From Pelagibacteraceae bacterium AG-337-G06 (GTDB taxonomy: Bacteria > Pseudomonadota > Alphaproteobacteria > Pelagibacterales > AG-422-B15), in the NCBI GenBank assembly GCA_003282175.1, contig QBZX01000002.1, positions 62,001 through 126,000 on the forward strand: a stretch of DNA of 64,000 nt, in the 5' to 3' direction. A program made the position numbers and the translations under genes. Of this stretch, positions 29,786 through 31,886 are shown piece by piece (position 1 is the first letter of the stretch; the number at the start of each line of letters is the position of its first letter). The notes beneath the pieces are model-generated. The model was not told where the DNA came from. It did no database searches and saw only the letters and a list, made by a program, of their open reading frames with translations.

Positions 29786-31084
29786 ATGAGAAATATTTTC
29801 TATATCATTCTACTATCAATATTTGTAATTTTTAGTTGTACAAAAAATGAAACTATAGAGGAAAATACTAATAGTTTTTCTATTTTGGCTTATGATGCAG
29901 AGGTTTCTGAAACTTTAGGCCTAAATATAGAAGATATAAGAATAGATCCTCCAAGAGAAGTAAATTATTGGTCGCAGCATTTTCAGAATCCTGCGAATAA
30001 TCTGAATAACATATTTTCTTTATCCGCTATTGAAAATAAGACAAAGCTTGTTTCTGGATCAAAAGGAGCTCTTAATATAATCCAGCCAATTTATTTTAAT
30101 GATACAATTTGCTATATTTTACCTAAGGGCTTCCTCGAATGTAAAAGTCTAAAAAGTAATGAAAAAATATTTTCAATTGATATTAAGGTTAATGGTAATA
30201 AAAAATATGAAATTATAAGAGGTGGGCTTGCTTATTTTGATAATAAAGTATTACTTGTTGATGCTTATGGGCAGATCTTACTCATTGATGCAAATGATGG
30301 CAGTAAAATATGGGAGAAAAAAATTGAATTTTCTATTTTATCTCCACCGTTAATTTATAGAAATCAAATTTTATTCATATCATCAGATAATCGATTATTT
30401 TCACTTTCTTTTGAGACTGGAGAAGTAGTATGGTCATTTCAAACAGTGGCAGAAGATAAGAAGAGTCTTATTACAGCGTCACCGATAGCTTTTGAAAACA
30501 TAATTATTGCTCCTTTTAGCAATGGTGAACTAGTTGCATTCACTAATGATACCGGAAGACCTTTGTGGTCAGAAAACGTCTCAAAGATCTCATCATTGAG
30601 TAATTTTGATATTAGGGATATTTCTGCTAGCCCAGTCTTATTAAATAATACAATTTTTTCAGTTAGCACTAATGGCAAATTGATATCGACAAATGCCATA
30701 AATGGAAAAAGGAATTGGGCAATTGATTTATCAGGATACAGGACACCAACTGTTTCTGGAGGGCAAATATATGTCATTGATGAAGATGGAAAACTTATCT
30801 GTCTAAATAAAAATACAGGTGAAGTCTTTTGGATTACAGAACTCAACAAATATATAAAAGGTCAAAAAGCAAAGGATCTGAATTTATGGCTAGGTCCATA
30901 TTTAATAAATAATTTATTATATAATATTTCTTACTTTGGTGAATTAAAGACTGTATCCCCAATGACAGGCGAAGTTCTGTCAAGTGATAATATAGGTGTG
31001 AAAGGTATTATATTACCACCAGTTATATTAAGTAACAAAGTATTTATTATGGACGAAAACTCAAATGTCTTCCATTTTGAATAA
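29786..31084 (+). CDS. bamB: Outer membrane assembly lipoprotein BamB-like (PQQ-like beta-propeller)
   Basis: Lipobox IFSC near N-terminus; repeated propeller blades (DANDGSKIWEKKI, SFETGEVVWSFQ, NKNTGEVFWITEL); upstream of der. Confidence 0.9.
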   Translation: MRNIFYIILLSIFVIFSCTKNETIEENTNSFSILAYDAEVSETLGLNIEDIRIDPPREVNYWSQHFQNPANNLNNIFSLSAIENKTKLVSGSKGALNIIQPIYFNDTICYILPKGFLECKSLKSNEKIFSIDIKVNGNKKYEIIRGGLAYFDNKVLLVDAYGQILLIDANDGSKIWEKKIEFSILSPPLIYRNQILFISSDNRLFSLSFETGEVVWSFQTVAEDKKSLITASPIAFENIIIAPFSNGELVAFTNDTGRPLWSENVSKISSLSNFDIRDISASPVLLNNTIFSVSTNGKLISTNAINGKRNWAIDLSGYRTPTVSGGQIYVIDEDGKLICLNKNTGEVFWITELNKYIKGQKAKDLNLWLGPYLINNLLYNISYFGELKTVSPMTGEVLSSDNIGVKGIILPPVILSNKVFIMDENSNVFHFE

Positions 31085-31886
31085 AATAAATTTATGTATT
31101 ATTGGTAAACCAAATTCAGGTAAATCAACTTTATTTAACTGCTTACTAGGAAATAGCATTTCTCCAGTTGGTGAAGAATACGGACTCACAAAAAAATTAT
31201 TTAAAAATAAATTTACTTCATATAGCCACGATTTTACAATTTTTGATACGCCGGGACTGAGAAGAAAAAGTAAAATTGATGATTTAGACGAAAAGGAAAG
31301 AAACAAGGAAGTCATAAAACTTATCGATAGGGTAGACGTAGTAATTTTGCTCATAGATTCTGTAGAAAATATTACCAAGCAAGACTTTAGGTTGGCTGAA
31401 ATAGCAATAACAAAAAAAAGGATACTATTTTTTTTGTTTAATAAGATGGATCTTATTGACGAAGTTAACAAATTTAAAACTAAAATCGATAAATATTTAA
31501 GCAATAATTATAGTCAATATCAGATGATTAATACTGATTTCATTTCTGCAGAGAAAAACATCAGAATTAAGAATTTTATAAAAGAAATTATTAAAAAAAA
31601 TAAACTTGTTCACATTGAAATCACAAAAGCCAATTTAAATAAATTTCTTAATTATTTAAATAAACTATCAAAATATCCAAAAATTAAAAAAAGAGAAATA
31701 AAGCCTAAGTATATTGTGCAATTAAAGGCCAGTTCTCCACTTTTTAAAGTCTTTATTAATTCAAAAAAGAAAGCGCCTCTTATATTTCAAAGATTTTTTG
31801 ATAATTCATTTAGGGATTATTTTAAGATAAAAGGAGTACCCATTTCTTATAAATTTATAAGCTCCAGCAATCCTTATTCAGACTAA
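31065..31886 (+). CDS. der: Single-G-domain Der/EngA GTPase (GD2 + KH-like domain only)
   Basis: G1 GKPNSGKS, G3 DTPG followed by LRRKSKI (GD2-type), G4 NKMD, G5 SAE, C-terminal KH-like region ending GVPISYKF...NPY; bamB-der synteny; only 273 aa. Confidence 0.8.
   Translation: MSSILNKINLCIIGKPNSGKSTLFNCLLGNSISPVGEEYGLTKKLFKNKFTSYSHDFTIFDTPGLRRKSKIDDLDEKERNKEVIKLIDRVDVVILLIDSVENITKQDFRLAEIAITKKRILFFLFNKMDLIDEVNKFKTKIDKYLSNNYSQYQMINTDFISAEKNIRIKNFIKEIIKKNKLVHIEITKANLNKFLNYLNKLSKYPKIKKREIKPKYIVQLKASSPLFKVFINSKKKAPLIFQRFFDNSFRDYFKIKGVPISYKFISSSNPYSD

Follow-up and report, generated by a model that had tools for sequence, protein, structure and literature searches.

A single-GTPase-domain Der protein in relatives of SAR11

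Main finding

The ribosome-assembly GTPase Der (EngA), which almost all bacteria make with two G domains, is found in a marine bacterium and in its order with a single G domain, and the Pelagibacter-type genomes of the sister family appear to lack it altogether. The gene lies in a 64,000-nucleotide stretch of DNA (hereafter the window), which is part of a 219 kb contig (QBZX01000002.1) of Pelagibacteraceae bacterium AG-337-G06, and encodes an intact 273-aa protein with one G domain followed by the Der-type KH domain (Table 1). Profile scores and phylogenetic trees show that the remaining G domain is GD2, the first G domain (GD1) being absent. We found that this architecture occurs in all seven genera of the order that have a Der and that all single-domain forms form one clade, suggesting that GD1 was most likely lost once, in the common ancestor of the order (Pelagibacterales by the evidence presented here). 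The initial annotation of this locus, which had read it as a Der with one G domain in the native bamB-der slot, is thus supported, but the phenomenon is larger than it had seen, being an order-wide loss followed by the complete loss of Der together with Era in Pelagibacter-type genomes.

Table 1. Features of the single-domain der locus (positions within the window)
Position	Strand	Feature	Supporting observations
29786..31084	+	bamB, directly upstream, overlapping der by 20 nt	PQQ_2, E 4e-42; bamB-der adjacency also in the genomes G036, G039, G040, G051, G060 and G147
31065..31886	+	der, single-G-domain form (273 aa, ATG start): GD2 + KH, GD1 absent	TIGR03594, 195.1 bits, E 2.1e-57, profile positions 175-431 of 432; MMR_HSR1 (residues 10-127)
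31104..31127	+	G1/P-loop GKPNSGKS, with the first K+-binding Asn (N17); the second Asn (N25) lies 5 residues after the P-loop Lys	G14, K15, P16, N17, G19, K20, S21, T22 and N25 invariant in 19 single-domain proteins; role of the two Asn from PMC3466195
31182..31190	+	G2 region GLT (Thr42, switch I)	G40 and T42 invariant in 19 sequences
31245..31277	+	G3 DTPG followed by LRRKSKI, the GD2-type switch II	Windowed profile scores favour GD2 by 14-29 bits after the P-loop region
31440..31451	+	G4 NKMD (guanine specificity)	K127 and D129 invariant
31545..31553	+	G5 SAE	Sequence
31620..31856	+	Der-type KH domain (KH_dom-like)	PF14714 (residues 186-264), E 4.6e-14, 52.9 bits against a cut-off of 27.3

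Domain architecture and origin of the remaining G domain

A search with the NCBIfam EngA model TIGR03594 matched the protein only over the part of the profile that corresponds to GD2 and KH, and well below the curated cut-off of 306.7 bits, whereas Pfam recovered a single MMR_HSR1 G domain and the Der-specific KH_dom-like domain, both above their cut-offs. The upstream DNA is an intact bamB, leaving no room for a GD1 hidden by a frameshift, and the conservation of the N-terminus across close relatives supports the start codon. The initial annotation had also pointed to the G2 region, which reads GLTKK; however, a GIT/GLT switch-I motif is seen in two-domain Ders too (for example GITRD in GD2 of the Der L098), so that only the change from R-D to K-K is unusual.

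To establish which of the two G domains had been retained, we compared it with models built from 99 two-domain Ders and obtained 144.9 bits with GD2 and 85.1 bits with GD1; the corresponding alphaproteobacterial models gave 137.2 and 81.0 bits. In a tree of GD1, GD2 and single-domain G domains, GD1 separated with 100/100 support and all 13 single-domain G domains lay on the GD2 side as one clade (98/93), which was recovered again in a GD2+KH tree (99/99). Thus, independent origins in the two families of the order are not favoured, although long branches and skewed composition remain a caveat. We also considered a chimera of GD1 and GD2 generated by unequal recombination, because the proteins of the sister family (hereafter f2) look more GD1-like in their first 60 residues (up to -16 bits). 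As the tree still places all of them in one clade on the GD2 side, this was rejected for the protein in the window and is unlikely for f2, where a small gene-conversion contribution is not excluded.

The genome itself (1.27 Mb, 20 contigs, 93% complete) contains no second EngA. The other TIGR03594 hits in it have the sequence or frame length of MnmE, Era, ObgE, HflX, LepA, YchF and further translation-type GTPases. Likewise, searches of nine single-domain genomes with a GD1-only profile returned no orphan GD1, the hits other than Der itself having the frame lengths of Era, MnmE, Obg, YchF, HflX and translation factors.

Distribution in the order and in Alphaproteobacteria

None of 59 relatives has a match over the EngA cut-off. 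Across 298 genomes of the order the Der KH domain was found in 33, from seven of eleven genera, and the frames listed for these are 269-287 aa in length or shorter fragments. The gene was found in most genomes of the window's own family (f1), with gaps that incomplete assemblies would explain, and its adjacency to bamB is conserved in both families. Several of the genomes are closed chromosomes whose sizes fit published SAR11 strains, one (Fonsibacter LSUCC0530) to the base. Among the genomes of the order, with or without a Der, G147 (1,284,727), G039 (1,237,371), G042 (1,456,888) and G048 (1,343,202) fit IMCC9063, HIMB114, HTCC7211 and HIMB5 in kilobases (PMC3815206), and L103, a near copy of the G040 type, is titled SCGC AAA028-D10, a name that occurs in papers on the LD12 clade. 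From these sizes we infer that the order is Pelagibacterales, that f2 is its Pelagibacter-containing family and that a genus of f2 (g3) holds Pelagibacter.

We then searched 386 Alphaproteobacteria genomes with a profile of the single-domain proteins and recovered two-domain frames (437 aa and longer) in all matches outside the order that were inspected for length. One apparent single-domain case, L164, is a frameshifted two-domain Der whose GD1 is plainly visible in another frame. Of 21 weak cases that were re-examined, eleven have a two-domain Der, in one split over two contigs, and ten have none; most of these ten have congeners with one, so gaps are likelier than losses. In a family with genomes of 0.6-0.8 Mb (f17: L212, L213, L214) we noticed two-domain Ders of 410-438 aa with unusual P-loops (GETNVGKS, GRSNVGKS) and, in L212 and L214, no NKxD motif in GD2.

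Absence of Der and Era in most genomes of the sister family

In f2, 11 genomes have the Der KH domain and 262 of 273 do not, the latter including all sampled Pelagibacter. In 14 genomes of g3 and of a further f2 genus (g6), a profile made from the f2 single-domain proteins found no Der-sized match: the hits have the frame lengths of MnmE (about 445 aa), Obg (about 335) and YchF (about 358), or are longer or much shorter frames. In six g3 chromosomes (L084-L089) bamB is followed not by der but by a conserved 143-153-aa gene (MILKFLEKIGRKKVVLDRGPSHP...) and an AFG1/ZapE-like ATPase gene. Era, the near-universal 30S assembly GTPase, shows the same split: at E 1e-38 the same 11 f2 genomes have it and 262 do not (the latter including, for example, G037, G038, G041, G042, G045 and G048 of g3 and G052 and G054 of g6), and in 13 g3/g6 genomes searched more loosely the best Era-profile match is the MnmE-sized frame. 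Incompleteness cannot explain this pattern, because many of these genomes are single contigs at 99-100% completeness. In addition, 21 genomes of the order gave no match to EngB/YihA (TIGR03598) above its cut-off, the hits corresponding in place or frame length to Der, Era, Obg, MnmE and longer GTPases, which raises the possibility that EngB is lost order-wide.

These observations led us to propose a stepwise dismantling of ribosome-assembly GTPases in streamlined free-living bacteria, with the loss of GD1 of Der first and then, in the Pelagibacter lineage, of all of Der together with all of Era. Under this hypothesis, which we consider somewhat more likely than not, their ribosomes would mature without two factors regarded as near-universal and essential, through changes in the ribosome itself or in other factors, and the protein in the window would be a surviving intermediate.

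Functional implications

The gene is under strong purifying selection, with dN/dS of 0.03-0.21 in nine pairs, and the P-loop residues, the two K+-coordinating Asn positions, the G3 Asp/Gly and the G4 Lys/Asp are invariant in 19 proteins. An AlphaFold2 model has a mean pLDDT of 89.3, and its best PDB matches are 50S-bound Bacillus subtilis YphC (9bsl_W, TM 0.85 over 260 columns, and 9bs0_W; rmsd 2.2-2.4), ahead of the free B. subtilis crystal forms (rmsd about 5), though as this rests on one predicted model it is a lead only. In ordinary Der, GD1 lies near the L1 stalk, GD2 occupies the P-site space and KH points to the peptidyl-transferase centre (PTC) (PMC13278734), while contact between KH and GD1 makes the closed state (PMC8696166); isolated GD2-KH with GMPPNP binds preferentially the 50S (PMC3466195). 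Removal of GD1 therefore leaves the parts that read the P-site/PTC and removes the L1-stalk contact and one regulatory input.

Taken together, we interpret the protein as the true orthologue of der/engA from which the first G domain has been removed, and as a functional, constrained protein that most likely works as a one-switch GD2-KH factor of late 50S assembly (probability about 0.78). In this scenario GTP-loaded GD2 would dock in the P-site space of the immature 50S subunit with KH reaching the PTC, K+-stimulated hydrolysis in the single G domain would release it, and the GD1-L1-stalk contact and GD1-KH open/closed switching would be gone. The binding to the 50S, the release mechanism and the retention of the essential Der function are inferences. 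Against them, in E. coli both G domains are needed for ribosome interaction and in vivo function, and B. subtilis GD2-KH alone hydrolyses GTP about 150 times slower than GD1 or full-length EngA (PMC3466195), so that a GD2-KH protein could be a poor Der; hence, compensation within GD2 or in the ribosome is predicted.

The principal alternative, which we regard as unlikely, is that the shortened protein no longer performs the 50S checkpoint of Der and is a repurposed or vestigial GD2-KH GTPase on the way to loss, as already happened in Pelagibacter. The absence of Der from most f2 genomes indicates that the order can live without it, the G2 region is eroded, and the domain lost is the main catalytic one in B. 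subtilis (PMC3466195). Moreover, some f2 single-domain proteins (L067, L178, L179, L065) have unusual G3 motifs (DLGG, DVGG) and a strongly changed segment after the G2 Thr, hinting at faster decay in some f2 lineages. However, the strong constraint, the invariance of the nucleotide- and K+-binding positions and the presence of the gene in most f1 genomes speak against this.

The other alternatives are very improbable. Provision of GD1 function in trans by another protein is conceivable in that split two-domain proteins exist in general and Era and MnmE carry GD1-like G domains, but the GD1-only searches of nine genomes returned only Der and frames matching known, separately conserved GTPases, and Era is an ordinary full-length gene in the Der-bearing genomes. 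An assembly error, frameshift or pseudogene might be suspected in a 20-contig genome, but the same architecture is seen in dozens of genomes, among them the single-contig chromosomes G036, G039, G040 and G147, without stops and under purifying selection. Finally, the Era (NF000908) and MnmE (TIGR00450) profiles do match the G domain, but at 77.4 and 69.3 bits, far below their cut-offs of 237 and 252.6. Both proteins are encoded by separate genes in the same genome (the genuine Era at 212 bits over nearly its full length), and the tree places the G domain with Der GD2, so this reading is refuted.

Why Der needs two G domains is an open question, and the fact that an entire order of abundant free-living bacteria keeps only GD2-KH under strong constraint makes the role of GD1 directly testable with natural, evolved single-domain proteins, some from cultured strains. 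The associated absence of Der and Era in Pelagibacter-type genomes challenges the view that these factors are indispensable outside the Candidate Phyla Radiation (CPR), and offers a natural system for asking what a minimal ribosome-assembly pathway needs. We found no description of a single-domain Der, or of Der loss in SAR11, in a literature search that left out most subscription journals, so that prior mention, especially of gene absence in SAR11, remains possible.

Comparison with known systems

By descent the protein is der, and it shares with the two-domain Der/EngA/YphC GTPases (TIGR03594; PDB 2HJG, 1MKY, 3J8G, 9BSL) the GD2 and KH domains, the bamB neighbourhood, the G and K+ motifs and the predicted GD2-KH fold. 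Nevertheless, it fails the family's own definition, both in lacking the double G domain and in falling below the curated cut-off, and neither the GD1-L1-stalk contact nor the GD1-KH switch is possible. Its domain content is that of the laboratory GD2-KH truncation of B. subtilis EngA, which binds nucleotide and has a K+-stimulated GTPase (PMC3466195); that is an artificial construct with weak GTPase activity, while the form described here is natural, fixed across an order and under selection. A reduction of Der in small genomes is also known from CPR classes, which show presence or absence of der (PMC12641178). Here a free-living alphaproteobacterial order shows a halved protein and then complete loss, and uL1 is retained in all 15 genomes tested, unlike the der-uL1 coupling described for CPR. 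An apparently independent decay of the same domain is seen in another reduced alphaproteobacterial family with 1.4 Mb genomes (f30: L215-L217), in which GD1 is still physically present (417-425 aa) and keeps its P-loop but has lost the NKxD motif, while GD2 keeps NKID/NKMD.
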